Virus record (IMG/VR): IMGVR_UViG_3300045107_000863
Span: 1-64,000 of that record
Source of the DNA: a virus
DNA length: 64,000 bases
Direction: 5' to 3' (one strand)
A model generated the notes under the pieces. That model saw nothing but the letters and a program-made list of their open reading frames with translations, was not told the origin of the DNA and did no database searches. Of the stretch, positions 2,867 through 43,827 are shown piece by piece. Every line of letters starts with the position of its first letter. The first letter of the stretch is position 1. The translations under genes and the position numbers were made by a program.

Positions 2867-3237
2867 GGTTGCTCCAGTTGATCACGTCCGTGTGCCTCCC
2901 CAGTGGGCGCCGAAGGTGCGGGTGGGCTGCGACGTTGCCGGCCGGCGGCGCGCAGCATGCGATGGAAGGTGATGATGAAGCCCCACGTGCAGATGGCCTG
3001 GACAAGGTGTTCGCCTGTCCAGAACCATCCGCCGTGGTGGTGGTCGCCGAGCACCATCCACAGGTGCGTGCCGGCGCAGCCGAGCAGGAACCCGGCGCCG
3101 AACACCATCGCGGTGCGGGTGAGCGGAAGGTACGGCAGCACCAGCACCGGAATGGCGGCGTAGCCGGCGGCGATGACCACGTTCGCGATCAGGAACAGGT
3201 GGGTGAGGTGGGCGGAAGGGTGATGCACGGGTGCCAC
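2863..3237 (-). CDS. Membrane protein in the lysis cluster
   Basis: 124 residues from GTG at 3237, with three hydrophobic segments (about 13-36, 41-61 and 77-92), a histidine-rich loop (GDHHHGGW) and a proline/basic C-terminal tail. It is first of the membrane genes after the endolysin and a candidate holin by position. Its stop overlaps the next start as ATGA. Confidence 0.6.
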   Translation of the reverse strand: MAPVHHPSAHLTHLFLIANVVIAAGYAAIPVLVLPYLPLTRTAMVFGAGFLLGCAGTHLWMVLGDHHHGGWFWTGEHLVQAICTWGFIITFHRMLRAAGRQRRSPPAPSAPTGEAHGRDQLEQP

Positions 3238-28796: not shown

Positions 28797-31439
28797 TTAC
28801 ACCGGTGAGATGCCGAACCCGTCGTCTTCTTCGTCCTCGACGACCTGATCCGGCAGCGGCGTCGCCACAGCGGTCAGCGTCAGCGCGTCCGCCCGGTCCG
28901 GGGATGGCAGGCCCCGCTTCTTCATGTCCGCCTTCGACTCGATCTGAATCTGCTGCCGGGCCGTGTACTTGTACTTCATCGCCCCCAACTGGGCGGCCAG
29001 GTCGTCGTCGTTCGGGTCGATGTCGATGTCGCCGGCCTCGAAGCGTTCCCGGACCGCCCACCACCACTCGGCGCGGGCGTTGAGGAAGTGCTCCGAGTCG
29101 ACAGCCCTGCCGCCGGCCTGCATGTCGACAACGTCGTGGCCGAGCTGCACCAGCTGGTCGACGACACCGCCGCCGACACCCACACCGTCGACGCGGATCT
29201 CATCCACGTGGTGTTCGGTCTTCGCGACGATCACCTTGCTGGTGGTGTCGGTGGTGGCCTGCATGGCGTGGTCACCGACGATGCGGGCGACGGGGCCGCG
29301 GCGCAGGCAGAACACCGTGCGGTCGGAGCCGTAGCGGGCGACGTCGACGCCGAGGATCGACCACGGCCCCGGCTCGCACGAGCGGTCCTGGGCGGCGGCG
29401 ATCCACGCGGGTGGGATCAGCACGTCCTCGCCGATGTCCGGGAACTCGCCGAGGACCTTCGACGTGAAGCGCGGCGAGGTGACGCCCCAGCGGCGCATCT
29501 TGTCCGCGACCCACTCCGGGTCGAGCATGAGCGGCCGCAGGCCGTCGGGCACGAACTCGTCGGACGGGCCCAGCCCGAGCCGCTCGAACAACTCCGGCAG
29601 GCCGGGCTGCTCGGCGATCCGCTCGGCGGTCATGTTCGGTGTTTCGAGGCCGGAGATGCGGATGACGTTCCAGCCGGAGCCGGGCTTGCACACCTCGTTG
29701 AACTCCGTCGACGGGTCGTCGGGGTTCCCGATCGCGAGGATGCGGCAGTCGGCGTTCGTGGTGATGGCCTCGACGGCGGTGTACAGCTGGGTGGGGATGC
29801 CGCACGCCTCGTCGAGGATGACCAGCACGTACCGACGGTGGATGCCTTGGAAGCCGTGCTCGTCGGTGTCGGCGGGTTTCCGGCCGAACCCGATGAGGGT
29901 GCCGTCGTCGAGTTTCCACTCGTCGGACTGCAACACCCGGCCGGGCAGCGGCTCGCCGCGGCCGGCGGCTTTCTTCGCGGCGGCGCGGATCTCTTCCCAC
30001 AGGATCGCGTGGACCTGCTTGTAGGTGGGTGCCGTGGACACGACGATCGCCTCACCGGGCGGGTGGGTGTCAAGCCACCAGGCGGCGATACGGGACGCGA
30101 TCCAGCTGTTGTGCTCGACGAACGTGGTGAGGAACGTGTGGTACGTCTCGACCGAGATCACCACCGTGGGCAGGTCGCCCATCGGCTCGACCTCGGCCAC
30201 CGTCTCCCACCGGTACCCGGCAGGGCACTCCCGGCGCATCCACCGCGACGGGCGCTGTGACCGGCTGGCGACCTCAACGACCTGCGCAACGGCCGCTTCC
30301 TTGCCGAAAATCCCGACGACCTCAGCGAACCGGATCTGATCCTCGGCTCGGTTGACGGCCCACTCCCATGCGTCGAACGTCTTGCCGTCTAGCTTGATCG
30401 CGCGGCGGCGCGTCTGACCGACAACGCCGAGGCGCAGCGCGGCCAGCTCGACCTCGCGGATCAGCTGCTCGGACGCCAAGGTGATGCCGATCTGCGCGCG
30501 CTCGCTGCCCCGGTCGTTGCGGACGTAGGCGTATCCGTCGCACGCGAACAGCCGATTCAGGAACAGCGCCAGTTTCTCGTCTGGGAGTTGCCACGCGGCG
30601 ACCGGGAACCGCTTTTCCTTGGCGCGGACGCCGAACATTCCGTGCTCGCGGACAAGGTTGAGCACCGGGTTCGACCCGGCTCGGCCCGAGCGACCGCCGG
30701 CTGCATGGATGGTGACCGTGTACTTGCTCGACGGCGTGCGGTCGACCCGGCCCCCGAGGCGAACGGCCACCTCGCAGAACTCGTCCATCGCTGGACCAGC
30801 CTGCTGGGTGAAGCAGATTTCCCGTGTGGTGCCGCCATCGCCGAGCAGATAGGCGAGCAGCTTGATCTGGTCGTCGGTCAACGGCGACGGCCGCTGCGGC
30901 ATGTTCAGCCGCTCGGGAACCAAGACCAGGTCGCCAGGCTTGACGTCCTCGGTGTTCGTCCATCCGATCGAGGTCACGACAGAGCGGTTACCCGGTCCAC
31001 CGCCGGTCCGCTTGCCGAGAAACAGGGGGTGGTTCCCGGTGCGGATAACCTCACGGCCGTGCTTGGTGCGTACCCGGTACGTCGGCTTGACGCCGTTGTC
31101 GGTGGCCCATGCCGTGGTCGGGATTTGCTGGCCGTCGGGCGCGAAGGCAAGAACCTGGAACGTGGTGCCAACGAGGTCAGTGGCCTTCATGAGGCGACCA
31201 TCGGCGAGGGGAATCACGCTCTCACTATATACGCACTTGCCGGCGTTGTGGCACGACTTCACGGCGGTGCGCCGGTTGTCCCGCACGCTCTCGGCGATCT
31301 GCCGCTGCTTGGACCACAGGAACTCACCGAGCCGGTTCTGACACCAGCCGACGGGGTCGGCGAGGTACGGCGACGGTGGCTTCGGCTTGAACCGTTCGGC
31401 GGCCTCGGCCCAAGCCATGCTGATGTCGAGCAGGGTCAC
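28797..31439 (-). CDS. Terminase large subunit with intein
   Basis: 880 residues from GTG at 31439; without residues 69-444 the mature protein is 504 residues, a normal size. The spliced P-loop reads SCHNAGKS. Walker B is VLVILDEACG, and the C-terminal RNase H-like nuclease has GVDVARYGSDRTV and DSEHFLNARAEWWW. The enzyme cuts and pumps concatemer DNA into proheads through the portal encoded next. The intein splits the P-loop between K and S, so splicing is needed for ATPase activity. Confidence 0.9.
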   Translation of the reverse strand: MTLLDISMAWAEAAERFKPKPPSPYLADPVGWCQNRLGEFLWSKQRQIAESVRDNRRTAVKSCHNAGKCVYSESVIPLADGRLMKATDLVGTTFQVLAFAPDGQQIPTTAWATDNGVKPTYRVRTKHGREVIRTGNHPLFLGKRTGGGPGNRSVVTSIGWTNTEDVKPGDLVLVPERLNMPQRPSPLTDDQIKLLAYLLGDGGTTREICFTQQAGPAMDEFCEVAVRLGGRVDRTPSSKYTVTIHAAGGRSGRAGSNPVLNLVREHGMFGVRAKEKRFPVAAWQLPDEKLALFLNRLFACDGYAYVRNDRGSERAQIGITLASEQLIREVELAALRLGVVGQTRRRAIKLDGKTFDAWEWAVNRAEDQIRFAEVVGIFGKEAAVAQVVEVASRSQRPSRWMRRECPAGYRWETVAEVEPMGDLPTVVISVETYHTFLTTFVEHNSWIASRIAAWWLDTHPPGEAIVVSTAPTYKQVHAILWEEIRAAAKKAAGRGEPLPGRVLQSDEWKLDDGTLIGFGRKPADTDEHGFQGIHRRYVLVILDEACGIPTQLYTAVEAITTNADCRILAIGNPDDPSTEFNEVCKPGSGWNVIRISGLETPNMTAERIAEQPGLPELFERLGLGPSDEFVPDGLRPLMLDPEWVADKMRRWGVTSPRFTSKVLGEFPDIGEDVLIPPAWIAAAQDRSCEPGPWSILGVDVARYGSDRTVFCLRRGPVARIVGDHAMQATTDTTSKVIVAKTEHHVDEIRVDGVGVGGGVVDQLVQLGHDVVDMQAGGRAVDSEHFLNARAEWWWAVRERFEAGDIDIDPNDDDLAAQLGAMKYKYTARQQIQIESKADMKKRGLPSPDRADALTLTAVATPLPDQVVEDEEDDGFGISPV
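30108..31235 (-). mobile_element. Intein with LAGLIDADG endonuclease in the large terminase
   Basis: 376 residues beginning with C69 and ending VEHN (H443, N444), followed by extein serine. Splicing motifs: block A with CVYSESVIPL, block B TGNH (T134, H137), block F ISVETYHTF. Two dodecapeptide motifs, LAYLLGDGG at 195-203 and LNRLFACDG at 294-302, mark a homing endonuclease that could spread it to intein-free alleles. Confidence 0.92.
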
Positions 31440-33117: not shown

Positions 33118-33250
33118 ATTGACATCCTCTCCGCCCTAAAGGACGGAGATTCCCTCCACGCTGCGCGTGGAACACGCGACGTCCGGGTGGGTTACCGCTT
33201 CTCTGCGCGCCGCCGAGACGAGTCCCGGTCTTACATGCGCTCCACGGTCG
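33118..33250 (-). ncRNA. Possible omega RNA at the TnpB end
   Basis: In IS200/IS605 elements the TnpB guide RNA spans the 3' end of tnpB and the element end, with the guide taken from flanking DNA. Here this segment includes two hairpins (33131-33146 and about 33155-33169). Assigned by analogy; boundaries are approximate. Confidence 0.35.
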
Positions 33251-34377
33251 TTTGAGTTGTCCGCCTGTCCGGCGGCCAACACGTTCTTCGCGGCGTTGTG
33301 ATCGCGATCGTGGGTGCTGCCACACGGGCACGCCCACGATCGGATCGACAGATCCATCTTCTCGTTGATCCGGCCGCAGTCCGAGCACATCTTCGTGCTG
33401 GGGAACCAGCGGTCGACCCTGGCGAAGGTCCGCCCGTACCGGGCGGCCTTGTACTCCAACATGCCCGTGAACGACGCCCAACCGGCGTCGTGCACGGACT
33501 TCGCGAGCCGGGTCCGGCCGAGACCGACGACGCACAGGTCCTCGACATAGATCGCTTGGTTCTCGCGAACTACGTTCGTGGAGAGTTTGTGCTGCCAGTC
33601 CCGCCGGGTGTCGGCCACCCGGGCGTGCGCCCGAGCGACCTTCACGACGGCCTTTTTGCGGTTCTGACTCCCGCGCTGCTTGCGGGAGAGAGCCTGTTGC
33701 AGCCGCTTGAGCTTGCGGGCCGCGCGGCGCAGAAACTTCGGTGCCGCGACCTTCGTGCCGTCCGACAGGACTGCGAAGTGGGTCAGGCCCAGGTCGATGC
33801 CAACCTCGGATTCGACCGGCGGCAACGCCTCGTCCGTCACCTGCACAACGAACGAGGCGAAGTACCGGCCAGCCGCATCCCGGATGATCGCCACACTCGA
33901 CGGATCGGAGGGCAGCGCCCGCGACCAGCGGACCGGCAGGTCGCCGATCTTCGGCAGCCGCAGGCGGCCGTTGTCGAGGACCTTGAACCGGGAGTTCTTC
34001 GTGAACCGGATCGCCTGCCGGTTGTCCTTGCGGGACCGGAACCTCGGCGGGGCCACCTTGCGGCCCTTGCGCTTGCCCGTGATCGAGGCGAAGAAGTTGC
34101 GGTACGCCGTGTTGAGGTCCGCCAGTGCCTGCTGCAACACGACCGACGACACCTCGCCCAGCCACGCCCGTTCCGGCGTTGCCTTCGCCTCGGTGATCAG
34201 GCGGCGGGACAGTTCGCCGTCCGAGATGTACTTCTCGCCCGCCTCCCGGGCCTGCTGGCGCAGCCTGAGTCCGTCGTTGAACACCACCCGCGCACACCCG
34301 AACGCCCGAGCCAGCTCGATCTGTTGGACGGGCGTCGGGTAGACGCGGAAGTTGTACCGGAGCTGCACGAGAAGCAC
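33136..34377 (-). CDS. tnpB: TnpB RNA-guided nuclease
   Basis: 413 residues from GTG at 34377. N-terminal FRVYPTPVQQ, OrfB core, and a split RuvC site with D195 in GIDLG, E279 in YVEDL and D359 in HDRDHNAAKN. The zinc finger has C331, C334, C350 and C352. All catalytic residues are present, so it is likely active. TnpB cuts DNA next to a TAM and helps the element persist after transposition. Confidence 0.9.
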   Translation of the reverse strand: MLLVQLRYNFRVYPTPVQQIELARAFGCARVVFNDGLRLRQQAREAGEKYISDGELSRRLITEAKATPERAWLGEVSSVVLQQALADLNTAYRNFFASITGKRKGRKVAPPRFRSRKDNRQAIRFTKNSRFKVLDNGRLRLPKIGDLPVRWSRALPSDPSSVAIIRDAAGRYFASFVVQVTDEALPPVESEVGIDLGLTHFAVLSDGTKVAAPKFLRRAARKLKRLQQALSRKQRGSQNRKKAVVKVARAHARVADTRRDWQHKLSTNVVRENQAIYVEDLCVVGLGRTRLAKSVHDAGWASFTGMLEYKAARYGRTFARVDRWFPSTKMCSDCGRINEKMDLSIRSWACPCGSTHDRDHNAAKNVLAAGQADNSNDRGAHVRPGLVSAARREAVTHPDVACSTRSVEGISVL

Positions 34378-34393
34378 TGTACCATGTTGGTTT

Positions 34394-34810
34394 ATGGCCG
34401 ACCTTGAAGGTATACGCACTGGTAGACACTGTGTCTTTGCTCTGCACGCTCACTTGGTCTTCGTGACGAAGTTCCGGCACCCCGTGTTCGGTGACCGGCA
34501 CCTCGCCCGAATGGAAGAGATCATGCGGGCGGTGTGCGCCGACTTCGAGACCGAGTTGGTCGAGTTCAACGGGGAGAACAACCACGTCCACCTGCTCGTC
34601 AACTTCCCGCCCAAGGTCGCCCTGGCGAAGCTGGTCAACAGCCTCAAGGGCGTGTCCAGCAGGAGGATGCGGCAGGAGTTCCCCGACCTCGTACGGCACT
34701 ACTACCGGGCCAACAAACTCTGGTCTGGTTCGTACTTCGCGGGCTCCGTCGGCGGCGCCCCGCTCTCGATCGTGAAGCAGTACATCGAGCAGCAGAACCG
34801 CCCGGTTTAA
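34394..34810 (+). CDS. tnpA: IS200/IS605 TnpA transposase
   Basis: 138 residues from ATG at 34394. The HUH motif is H64-V-H66 and the catalytic tyrosine is Y130 in IVKQYIEQQ. It is a complete Y1 single-strand transposase of normal length. It diverges from tnpB with start codons 16 bases apart. Confidence 0.92.
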   Translation: MADLEGIRTGRHCVFALHAHLVFVTKFRHPVFGDRHLARMEEIMRAVCADFETELVEFNGENNHVHLLVNFPPKVALAKLVNSLKGVSSRRMRQEFPDLVRHYYRANKLWSGSYFAGSVGGAPLSIVKQYIEQQNRPV

Positions 34811-40258: not shown

Positions 40259-41253
40259 GCTGCGGTCCTTTCGGAGGTGCGGCCGGTAGCCGCGGCGTTG
40301 GTGGTGCTGGGTTGGGTTTTCGCGGTGGAGCGGGTCGCGGTGTTGCGGAGCTGCTCGACGACGTGGGTTTTCAGGCCGTGCAGGGTGGCGAAGTCCTTCA
40401 GTCCGGGCCCGTCGAGCAGACGTGCGCGGCGCTGCCGTTCCCACGCATGCCACAGGGCGATCTGCTCGGCGGCGTTGAGGTCGTCGAAGCGTGCATCGCC
40501 GATGAGAGCGCGACGTACGAGGACTTCATCGACGTCCTGCTCCGGCGTGTTTTCGGGCTGCCCGGTGTGGGGGGTGGCCGCCGGGTCGTCGATGTCGTCG
40601 TCCCATGCGAGGGGCGGTGCCCATTCCCGGTTCGCGGCCATGCGCCGGGTACGGGTGCGGACCATGCCCGCCGGCGGCGGGGTGGCCGACATCTGCTCGT
40701 ACAGCTCGGCTACCTCACGGGCGGTACGCACGGTAACGAGTTGCTGGGTGAGCAGGTCGTTGAAGTTGCGGATACCACGGTTCAACCGTCGGGCTTGCTC
40801 GGCGATGGACCAGCCGAACGCGGCGAGGGCTTGGATGCGGCGGCGGGTCCCGGCGGCGTTGACGAACGCTCCGTCGGCGAGGGCGCTGGTGTCGGCCTTG
40901 ACCGCGAGCAGTGCTTGGGCGACGTGGGGGCGCAGCCGCTTGGTTGGCGGACGTCCGCTGTGGTGCCGCCAGACGAGGTGTTGAACGGTGGCTGTGCCGA
41001 CGCCGGCGAGTTGGGCGATGCGGGCGGCGCCGAGGCCTTTGGCGCGTAGCTGGTTGACGTGTTGGCGTACTGGTGCGGCGTCAACGAGCGGCGCCCATCG
41101 GCCGTAGGCGTTGAGGCGGTTGTATCTGTCGTTGTAGTCGCGGTTGGCGGCGCGGCAGGGGGTGCACCGGCAGCGGTGGATCTTGTATCCGCTGAGGGTG
41201 CCGTGGCGTGGGTCGTCCGGCGTGAGGGGGCGGCGGGTGGTCTTGTTGGTCAT
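40255..41253 (-). CDS. HTH-containing hypothetical protein
   Basis: 332 residues. An N-terminal segment with HRCRCTPCRAANRDYN is typical of actinobacterial mobile-element proteins. GLGAARIAQLAGVGTATVQHLVW is a helix-turn-helix near residue 70, with a helical remainder. It overlaps the SSB gene (ATGA). DNA binding is likely; the target is unknown. Confidence 0.6.
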   Translation of the reverse strand: MTNKTTRRPLTPDDPRHGTLSGYKIHRCRCTPCRAANRDYNDRYNRLNAYGRWAPLVDAAPVRQHVNQLRAKGLGAARIAQLAGVGTATVQHLVWRHHSGRPPTKRLRPHVAQALLAVKADTSALADGAFVNAAGTRRRIQALAAFGWSIAEQARRLNRGIRNFNDLLTQQLVTVRTAREVAELYEQMSATPPPAGMVRTRTRRMAANREWAPPLAWDDDIDDPAATPHTGQPENTPEQDVDEVLVRRALIGDARFDDLNAAEQIALWHAWERQRRARLLDGPGLKDFATLHGLKTHVVEQLRNTATRSTAKTQPSTTNAAATGRTSERTAA

Positions 41254-42725
41254 GCCGGCAGCTCGATTGTCTCGCCGTGGCTGAGGACGTTGTTCAGCAG
41301 CGTGGCGTATGCGTGCGCTGCTTGCTGCGGGACGACTCCGTTGCCGAGGCACTTGAGCGCGCCGTTACGCGGGACATGGTCGGTTACCCAGCCGACGGGC
41401 AGGCCCATGAGCCACTCAACGAACACGGGGCTGAGGCGGGGCTGCCCATTCGCGCCGGGCTCGGTGGGGTCGGGTGCGGGCCGGCCGACTACCTGCTCCC
41501 AGCGGGTGATGGCGGGCGCGTAGCTGCCCCACCGGTCGGCATGCGCCACGTCGGAGAGCGTCCAACTGGTTGTGGTGGTGGTCGGCTTGGGGTTGGTCCG
41601 GTTCGCGGTGGCGTTCCGGCCGCCCTTCGCGTCGGTGGCCGTCAGGGTCGGTAGGAGCTGCATGACGGCGGAGGGCAGCATCAGGTCGCCGGAGCTGCCG
41701 CGCTGGTTGGGTCCGCCCTTCGTGCCGTCGGTGGCTCGTGGGGTGGGTAGGAGCGCGATGGCGTCTTCCAGGTTGCGGCGGCCCTGCTCGTGCATCCGCC
41801 GCTGCGCGGTGTCCGCGTTCGGGGTGCCCCGCCGGTCGCCGAGCTGGGCGGCTGGCGTCGGCAGAAGCGCCACCGCCTCGTTGAGGTCCACGCCGCGCGG
41901 GTTCGCGTTGCGGCCCTTGCTGTCACGCGCCCTGGGCGTCGGGAGCAACGACACGGCGGTGCGCAGGTCCGGGCCTCCGGTGCCGTGCACGCCGGGTCCG
42001 CGCATGTCGTTCGTCCTGGGCGTGGGCAGCAGGGTCAGGCCGTCTGCTCCAGCACCACCTGCGACAGGGGCGGCCGGAACCCTTCCGACGCCCGCCTGCC
42101 CGGCGTGCCCGTGTCCGAAGCGCGGGGGGTTGGCAGCAGGCCAGGCAACGATGAAGACCCGCTTGCGGCGGTGCGGGGCACCGACGTCCGACGCGGGAAC
42201 AGTCGCCCACTCCGCATCGAACCCGAGGGCGGCAAGGTCCGCGAGTACGGCTCCGAGTGCCCGCACCACAAGGTCAGGGTCGACGTCTCCCAGACACCAC
42301 GGGCAGGGTTCCACGTCGCTATGGGCTCGGGCACTGAGCAGTCCTTCCACGTTCTCCAGGAACACCAGCGGCGGGCGGAGTACCCCGATGCCGTAGGCGA
42401 TGTGCGACCAGATGCCGGTGCGGGTGCCTGGCTTCAGGCCGGCGCGTTTCCCGGCGGCGGACACGTCGGTGCAGGGGAAGCCGGCGGTGAGGACGTCTAC
42501 GCGTGGCAGGGCGGCCCAGTCGACGGCGGTGAGGTCCCCGAGGTTGGGCACATCGGGCCAGTGCGCGGCAGCCACCTGGGCGGCGTACTGCGGGACCGGC
42601 TTTCCAGCGGAGGTGAGCGCCGGGTCGAACTCGGCGTACCAGAGGTGCTCCAGGGGGCCGAGCACTGATTCGGCGGCGAGCTCCAACCCGCCGTATCCCT
42701 TGCATAGGGCGCCAGAGGTCAGCAT
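41250..42725 (-). CDS. DNA cytosine-5 methyltransferase with LPTP repeats
   Basis: 491 residues. Motif IV is GFPC (C85 catalytic), motif VI ENVE (124-127), motif VIII near RRKR (186-189) and motif X near GNGV (461-464). Between VIII and IX, in the target-recognition region (230-372), five LLPT(P/L) segments recur about every 30-40 residues. Cytosine methylation may protect phage DNA from host restriction. No cognate endonuclease is next to it. Confidence 0.88.
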   Translation of the reverse strand: MLTSGALCKGYGGLELAAESVLGPLEHLWYAEFDPALTSAGKPVPQYAAQVAAAHWPDVPNLGDLTAVDWAALPRVDVLTAGFPCTDVSAAGKRAGLKPGTRTGIWSHIAYGIGVLRPPLVFLENVEGLLSARAHSDVEPCPWCLGDVDPDLVVRALGAVLADLAALGFDAEWATVPASDVGAPHRRKRVFIVAWPAANPPRFGHGHAGQAGVGRVPAAPVAGGAGADGLTLLPTPRTNDMRGPGVHGTGGPDLRTAVSLLPTPRARDSKGRNANPRGVDLNEAVALLPTPAAQLGDRRGTPNADTAQRRMHEQGRRNLEDAIALLPTPRATDGTKGGPNQRGSSGDLMLPSAVMQLLPTLTATDAKGGRNATANRTNPKPTTTTTSWTLSDVAHADRWGSYAPAITRWEQVVGRPAPDPTEPGANGQPRLSPVFVEWLMGLPVGWVTDHVPRNGALKCLGNGVVPQQAAHAYATLLNNVLSHGETIELPA

Positions 42726-42979
42726 CAGGCGGTCGCCTTCCGTGGTGGGGTGATGCCGAGGGCGGCTGCGGTTTCGTCGCGCCAGGTGCGGGCGGCGCGG
42801 AGCTGGGTGGGGTCGTGGTCGGTGCGGGTGTTCCAGTCGGGGCCGAGGAACCGGTTGCAGGCGATCGCGGTGAGGTTGCGGTAGGCGGCGGCGCGCTGCT
42901 GCTGCCGTCGCCGCTCGCCGTCGGCGGCGGTGGCGACGCGGGTGGTGTCGTATCCGCCTTCGATGGCTTGGACGCCCAT
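42725..42979 (-). CDS. Small hypothetical protein
   Basis: 84 residues, basic and helical (RRRQQQRAAAYRNLTAIA), with WRDETAAALGITPP at the end. TGATG overlaps on both sides. Confidence 0.5.
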   Translation of the reverse strand: MGVQAIEGGYDTTRVATAADGERRRQQQRAAAYRNLTAIACNRFLGPDWNTRTDHDPTQLRAARTWRDETAAALGITPPRKATA

Positions 42980-43827
42980 CAGTGGTTCTCCTTGCCGGGG
43001 ATGGTGTCGGTGGTCGTGGTGCACCGGCTGCAGCCGGCGGAGGTGCGGAGCAGGCCCTGCTGGTAGGCGAGGTGCACGGCGTGCGCGGCGTTGCGGGCGC
43101 CGAGCTGCCGGTACAGCTCCTGCATGTGGGTTTTCGCGGTGGTGGGGGAGACGCTGAGCGTCGCGGCGATGTCGTTGACGGCGGCACCGTCGGCGAGCAG
43201 TCGGATGATCTGGTCGCGTCGGCGGGCCGGGGTTCCGGCTACCGGCCGGGTCTGCGTCGCGGCGTCCGGCCGGGCGGGCTGGCGGCCTTCCCGCATTTCC
43301 CGCCGGTTCTTCAACCGCAGCATCGCCTCCGTGACGGACATGTGGCCGGACTGGACGTCGCGCTGCTCACCGGGGGTGAGGTGCACGAGGCTGATCCGGT
43401 CACGCACCCAGGCGGGGCTTTTGCCGACCATGCGGGCGAGGTTTTCGCGGGTGACGTTGTGTTCGAACATCAGCTTGTGGAGGGCGCGGGCTTCGGCCAT
43501 CGGGTCGAAGGCGCGGGTGTGGCCTTGGATGGACAGCTGCCGGACGGCGCGGCGGATGGGGTTGTCGTCGGTGTGGCGGACGACGGCGGTGAGGTGGAGG
43601 ATCCCGGCTTGGTTCGCGGCGGCGTGCCGGCGGTGGCCGTCGAGGAGTTGGTAGCGGTTGCCGGTGAGGGGTTCGACGAGAACGGGGACGAGTTGGCCGA
43701 CGACTTTGAGGGAGGCGGCGAGTTCGGCGACGTCGCCGATGTGGCCGCGGGTGCTGGGGCCGGGTTCGATGTGGTCGATGGGGAGGCGCAGCAGCGCGGG
43801 GCGGCTGGTTGTGGTTGTGGTGGTCAT
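42979..43827 (-). CDS. ParB-like protein fused to a LuxR-type HTH
   Basis: 282 residues. Residues 10-110 form a ParB/Srx-like domain (IEPGPSTRGHIGDVAELAASLK, LLDGHRRHAAA), followed by a ParB-type HTH (TRENLARMVGKSPAWVRDRISL). From about 205 comes a second, LuxR-type HTH (DGAAVNDIAATLSVSPTTAKTHMQELYRQLG), then a cysteine-containing tail. It likely binds DNA at two kinds of site and may regulate or segregate. Two-HTH layout is unusual. Confidence 0.75.
   Translation of the reverse strand: MTTTTTTSRPALLRLPIDHIEPGPSTRGHIGDVAELAASLKVVGQLVPVLVEPLTGNRYQLLDGHRRHAAANQAGILHLTAVVRHTDDNPIRRAVRQLSIQGHTRAFDPMAEARALHKLMFEHNVTRENLARMVGKSPAWVRDRISLVHLTPGEQRDVQSGHMSVTEAMLRLKNRREMREGRQPARPDAATQTRPVAGTPARRRDQIIRLLADGAAVNDIAATLSVSPTTAKTHMQELYRQLGARNAAHAVHLAYQQGLLRTSAGCSRCTTTTDTIPGKENH

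Follow-up and report, generated by a model that had tools for sequence, protein, structure and literature searches.

A predicted class 1 homing intein in the P-loop of the large terminase of a Micromonosporaceae-type tailed phage

Results

The terL locus and its insert

The window analyzed here is a stretch of 64,000 nucleotides from a virus record of 65,170 bases (IMGVR_UViG_3300045107_000863), in which head, tail, portal and replication genes surround the gene for the large terminase subunit (terL). Translation of the minus strand gives one stop-free open frame of 880 residues. Its first 68 residues and residues 445-880 form a large terminase according to PHROG phrog_2, and residues 69-444 are an insertion. 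The features of the gene, all on the minus strand, are as follows.

28797..31439, minus strand: terL precursor gene, 880 aa, GTG start (PHROG phrog_2, terminase large subunit, E 3e-29)
31236..31439, minus strand: N-extein, 68 aa, ending with the Walker A residues SCHNAGK (junction reading and homologue comparison)
30108..31235, minus strand: predicted class 1 intein with homing endonuclease, 376 aa (translation, profiles and predicted fold)
31197..31235, minus strand: splicing block A (Cys1; CVYSESVIPLADG) (TIGR01445; alignment A2)
31020..31061, minus strand: splicing block B (HGREVIRTGNHPLF region; T66-x-x-H69), with H69 invariant in the 19-sequence alignment A2
30831..30860, minus strand: endonuclease block C, LAGLIDADG motif 1 (LLAYLLGDGG, Asp133) (alignment A2)
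30594..30629, minus strand: endonuclease block D (Lys208 and Pro211, both invariant in alignments A2 and A3)
30528..30569, minus strand: endonuclease block E, LAGLIDADG motif 2 (ALFLNRLFACDGYA, Asp233), with Asp233 and Gly234 invariant (Pfam LAGLIDADG_3)
30423..30446, minus strand: endonuclease block H (LAALRLGV) (alignment A2)
30120..30173, minus strand: splicing block F (PTVVISVETYHTFLTTF region, His366) (alignments A1 and A2)
30108..30119, minus strand: splicing block G (VEHN), with His375 and Asn376 invariant in alignment A2
30105-30107, minus strand: Ser+1, directly after block G (translation)
28797..30107, minus strand: C-extein, 436 aa, beginning with the P-loop Ser and comprising the remaining ATPase and the nuclease domain (phrog_2, E 1e-29)

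An earlier note on this DNA, made from the sequence alone, had read the insert as an intein lying exactly between the Walker A Lys and Ser, and its bounds proved exact to the base: the Cys1 codon occupies 31233-31235, the codon of the last Asn occupies 30108-30110, and the junctions read SCHNAGK/CVYSE and TFVEHN/SWIAS. The Walker A motif that is split in this way begins with Ser instead of Gly or Ala (S-CHNA-GK-S). Once spliced, TerL would be a protein of 504 aa.

Elsewhere in the window, an IS200/IS605-type element (33136-34810; TnpB at 33136-34419 on the minus strand and TnpA at 34352-34810 on the plus strand) lies between two phage genes, and it is regarded as an insertion because the same two genes are only ~260 bases apart in two related contigs (L003 and L004). 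In a C5 cytosine methyltransferase gene (41250-43187), LLPTPxAxD repeats separate the two conserved halves. A second intein was considered there and rejected, since the extra length consists of these repeats and gave no Hint match.

Splicing and endonuclease motifs

Splicing blocks A, B, F and G and both LAGLIDADG motifs, as the earlier note had claimed, are present, and alignments show that the splicing residues are all kept, namely Cys1, T66-G-N-H69, the block F His366, His375-Asn376 and Ser+1. The only departure noted is Val359, which by eye stands at a block F site where Asp or Cys is common; the relatives have Ala, Cys, Gly or Asn here, and inteins are known to accept many substitutions in their active sites (PMC7664689). 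The Trp-Cys-Thr (WCT) triplet that defines class 3 inteins (PMC5050341, PMC7664689) was looked for in alignment A2 and is missing from the window intein, which reads HPLF at block B, with no Trp following the His, and has Val at position 4 of block F and Glu preceding HN. Cys1, TxxH, HN/S, the missing WCT triplet, an in-frame insertion lacking in homologues and a predicted Hint fold together characterize the insert as class 1. For the nested domain, Asp133, Lys208 and Asp233 are intact and the frame is open throughout, so that two motifs with their acidic residues and the block D Lys point to a LAGLIDADG endonuclease.

Profile and fold evidence

The insert scored 44 bits with Pfam LAGLIDADG_3 (cut-off 22.5) and 24.7-26.5 bits with NCBIfam TIGR01445 intein_Nterm (cut-off 24.5), and 23.6 bits with Pfam Intein_splicing, which is under the gathering cut-off of 35.8 for that model. 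Given these Pfam and NCBIfam scores, the splicing blocks and LAGLIDADG motifs are not a chance resemblance. In a comparison with known inteins, as the earlier note had proposed, a profile built from 19 related inserts matched solved inteins, the best being TliVMA (E 1e-19), followed by the DnaB, PkoII, GyrA and RecA inteins.

AlphaFold2 with a two-row alignment yielded a useless model (pLDDT 42.5), and a 35-row alignment was used instead, giving a pLDDT of 94.9 and a pTM of 0.93. The best PDB matches of this model in Foldseek were the TliVMA intein-endonuclease (7qss/7qsu) and PI-SceI (1vde), with E values of 4e-19 to 2e-15; the endonuclease-associated TliVMA intein ranked first, followed by PI-SceI, PI-PkoII and PI-PfuI. 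The predicted structure thus has the Hint fold.

Intein-free homologues and the likely host

With the C-extein as query, 59 viral and 16 genome loci were recovered. As the earlier note had asked, the precursor was aligned with intein-free terminases, and an uninterrupted SCHxxGK-S/T site was present in 62 fetched TerL loci, which are not all independent, some being duplicates of one phage. The nearest terminase, that of a Micromonospora sp. ATA32 prophage, is 90% identical to that of the window and has no intein. An apparent 88-aa insertion in one other TerL (L090) turned out to be a run of N. Related actinobacterial terL genes share 68-90% identity over the 60 nt that surround the junction.

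Named relatives of the terminase come from Micromonospora, Actinoplanes/Paractinoplanes, Dactylosporangium, Actinomadura, Streptosporangium and Nocardioides. Because the closest named hits, which are prophage relatives, belong to Micromonosporaceae, the host of the phage is most likely a member of this family, among the soil actinobacteria.

These homologues bear on the reading that the segment is no intein but a normal domain of the terminase or a join made during assembly. The precursor being a single open frame is the sole point for this reading. It is opposed by homologues in which the segment is missing precisely at Lys/Ser, by related inserts found at the same site in many independent contigs, and by a fold and profiles that are those of inteins, and we therefore give it practically no credence. 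The refuting case set out in the earlier note, homologous terminases having the segment as a normal domain, was looked for and did not turn up. An intein with a LAGLIDADG endonuclease, as the earlier note had proposed, is backed by the empty-site homologues, the profiles, the fold and the same-site inteins in very different terminases. We are accordingly highly confident that a tailed phage of Micromonosporaceae type here carries a class 1 homing intein, with predicted splicing and homing, in its large terminase.

Related inteins and their distribution

Scans of viral contigs, in which the viral collections were searched by short conserved peptides, recovered a family of TerL inteins at the Lys/Ser or Lys/Thr junction. 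Six IMG/VR members from uncultured phages, L066 (56% identical to the window intein), L117 (54%) and L061, L068, L069 and L070 (45-47%), share the insertion site, length (375-389 aa) and block order of the window intein, whereas their terminases are 29-60% identical to that of the window. Intein and extein identities to the window are 56% and 40% for L066, the nearest intein, 54% and 60% for L117, 47% and 36% for L061, 46% and 38% for L069, and 45% and 29% for L070. Among distant pairs, inteins are about 36-56% and terminases 24-40% identical, the intein identity being the higher in every such pair.

In the intein tree, L117 and L066 are paired (98/97) and the window intein is the sister of that pair (98/95). 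In the terminase tree, by contrast, the window lies among intein-free Micromonospora-type phages, L117 groups with the intein-free L024, and L066 falls outside. Forcing the L117 and L066 terminases together was strongly rejected by the AU test (p about 3e-27); in the intein tree alone, forcing the window and L117 together was borderline (p 0.056). Third-position GC is 0.85 in the intein and 0.93 in the C-extein. The patchy distribution, together with an intein tree unlike the terminase tree, fits horizontal arrival by homing, as judged from these sequence comparisons.

No near-identical or closer copy of the window intein was found in the collections searched (the viral ones by short conserved peptides). 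With a nearest intein of only 56% identity, none of these comparisons shows homing in the recent past. A donor in a host chromosome was also looked for: 77 of the 301 genomes of the Micromonospora ATA32 family were matched (E<=1e-10), but only at 24-33% identity, and no close donor copy was found among the 301. The match in the ATA32 genome itself, the sole one opened, is a DnaB intein.

It is possible, though we consider it unlikely, that the intein is still splicing-competent while its endonuclease is no longer active, with passive inheritance and with loss explaining the patchiness. The lack of a near-identical copy would agree with this, as would the fact that only one other class 1 copy, that of L117, occurs among close terminases. 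The endonuclease frame is nevertheless open throughout and retains its two catalytic Asp residues and the Lys of block D, and the trees point to transfer rather than vertical descent. The insert is therefore most likely active as a class 1 homing intein, as predicted from its sequence.

Class 3 inteins at the same junction

The TerL of Micromonospora sonchi (L086), which is 81% identical to that of the window, contains a 352-residue insert at the identical Lys/Ser junction of the P-loop.

L086:6945-8000 (Micromonospora sonchi): class 3 intein (Gly1, WCT triplet, LAGLIDADG-like endonuclease)

This insert begins with Gly and has the Trp (HLW), Cys (TKC) and Thr (PTHN) of the class 3 triplet; NCBIfam and Pfam intein models gave no match to it. 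Among its relatives are inserts at this P-loop junction in two phage terminases, those of Clavibacter phage CMP1 and Microcystis phage Mwe-JY05. Because so similar a terminase holds a class 3 intein at the class 1 site of the window, the sequences indicate that inteins of the two classes entered one codon junction independently. Occupants of the junction include class 1 inteins in the window, L117 and L066, and class 3 inteins in M. sonchi, CMP1 and Mwe-JY05. We tentatively propose, as a possibility rather than the probable case, that the Lys/Ser or Lys/Thr junction of this terminase family may be a homing hotspot for which two intein classes with different chemistry compete and that, if so, phage terminases may form a standing reservoir of P-loop inteins entering cellular ATPases.

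Other arrangements were observed among the TerL contigs. One Walker A motif in L081 (2546-5119 of IMGVR_UViG_3300039159_000083) holds two class 1 inteins of 431 and 425 aa that are 44% identical, in the layout GRGG/intein/SK/intein/ST with a middle extein of two residues; the two copies differ too much at the DNA level to be explained by a simple duplication in the assembly. In L079 and L080, an intein at Lys/Thr is accompanied by a second intein-like insert downstream (LFYDW/CWPQ...HN/CTR). Related inteins lie outside the P-loop in L128 and L131 (RESKF/C...VEHN/SGKHA), and a few residues earlier within it in L135, L142 and L144 (GRR/C...HN/T or C-GKS). In L117, from position 3001, the open frame continues for ~200 residues past the TerL C-terminus (QLDGSRISCAGRSW...), perhaps because of a fusion, or because a second terminase-like nuclease domain ends here.

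Discussion

According to the proposed mechanism, the precursor would be made as one 880-residue chain in which the insert keeps the Lys and Ser of the P-loop apart. The Hint domain would then act through an acyl shift at Cys1, transesterification to Ser+1 and cyclization of Asn376, so that the 376-residue intein is excised and ...AGK-S... is restored in a 504-residue TerL. The precursor would presumably have no ATPase activity until spliced, by analogy with the P. horikoshii RadA P-loop intein, which, as cited in PMC6195587, disrupts ATPase function. The nested LAGLIDADG endonuclease is predicted to cut intein-free terL of co-infecting or resident phages at the conserved codon junction, and repair of the cut gene would copy the intein in.

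A retained regulatory switch, in which slow or conditional splicing would time the packaging ATPase late in infection, appears quite improbable. In other proteins, P-loop inteins have been shown or proposed to act as switches that respond to redox state or temperature (PMC6195587, PMC5790916), and Cys1 could be redox-sensitive; almost all close relatives, however, do without the intein, and five mycobacteriophage terminase inteins (sites b, c, e, f and g) spliced readily in E. coli (PMC5050341). A homing intein thus remains our preferred explanation.

In itself, the window intein will not surprise specialists. It is a well-resolved further example of phage P-loop inteins from outside mycobacteriophages, and the locus offers a natural panel of one terminase with intein-free, class 1 and class 3 alleles, which would allow tests of how inteins compete in homing and of what splicing costs a packaging motor.

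Comparison with known systems

P-loop inteins of TerL, including those at the Lys/Thr site 'TerL1-a', were described in mycobacteriophages (Kelley et al. 2016, PMC5050341), in which the terminase inteins b and c cut intein-free targets (PMC5050341). Like the window intein, TerL1-a inteins directly follow the invariant P-loop Lys and precede a hydroxyl residue, but this is Thr in mycobacteriophages and Ser in the Micromonosporaceae-type phage. No mycobacteriophage TerL intein was recovered as a relative of the window intein by tblastn against 50,697 phage records at E<=1e-5, suggesting a different lineage at the TerL1-a site. The TerL intein of Bacillus phage vB_BauM_KLEB27-3 also occupies the Lys/Thr P-loop site, but is 29% identical over the intein and 24% over the terminase.

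In the mycobacterial DnaB intein DnaBi1, as in the window, the Ser of the P-loop also serves as the +1 nucleophile in splicing (PMC6195587), although DnaBi1 is a class 3 intein without an endonuclease, whereas the window intein is class 1 with one. TliVMA (7qss, 7qsu) and PI-SceI (1vde) share with the window intein a Hint domain and a nested LAGLIDADG endonuclease, at ~15% sequence identity and in V-type ATPase subunits as host proteins. TerL P-loop inteins have therefore been known since 2016, and the window adds another lineage from outside mycobacteriophages.
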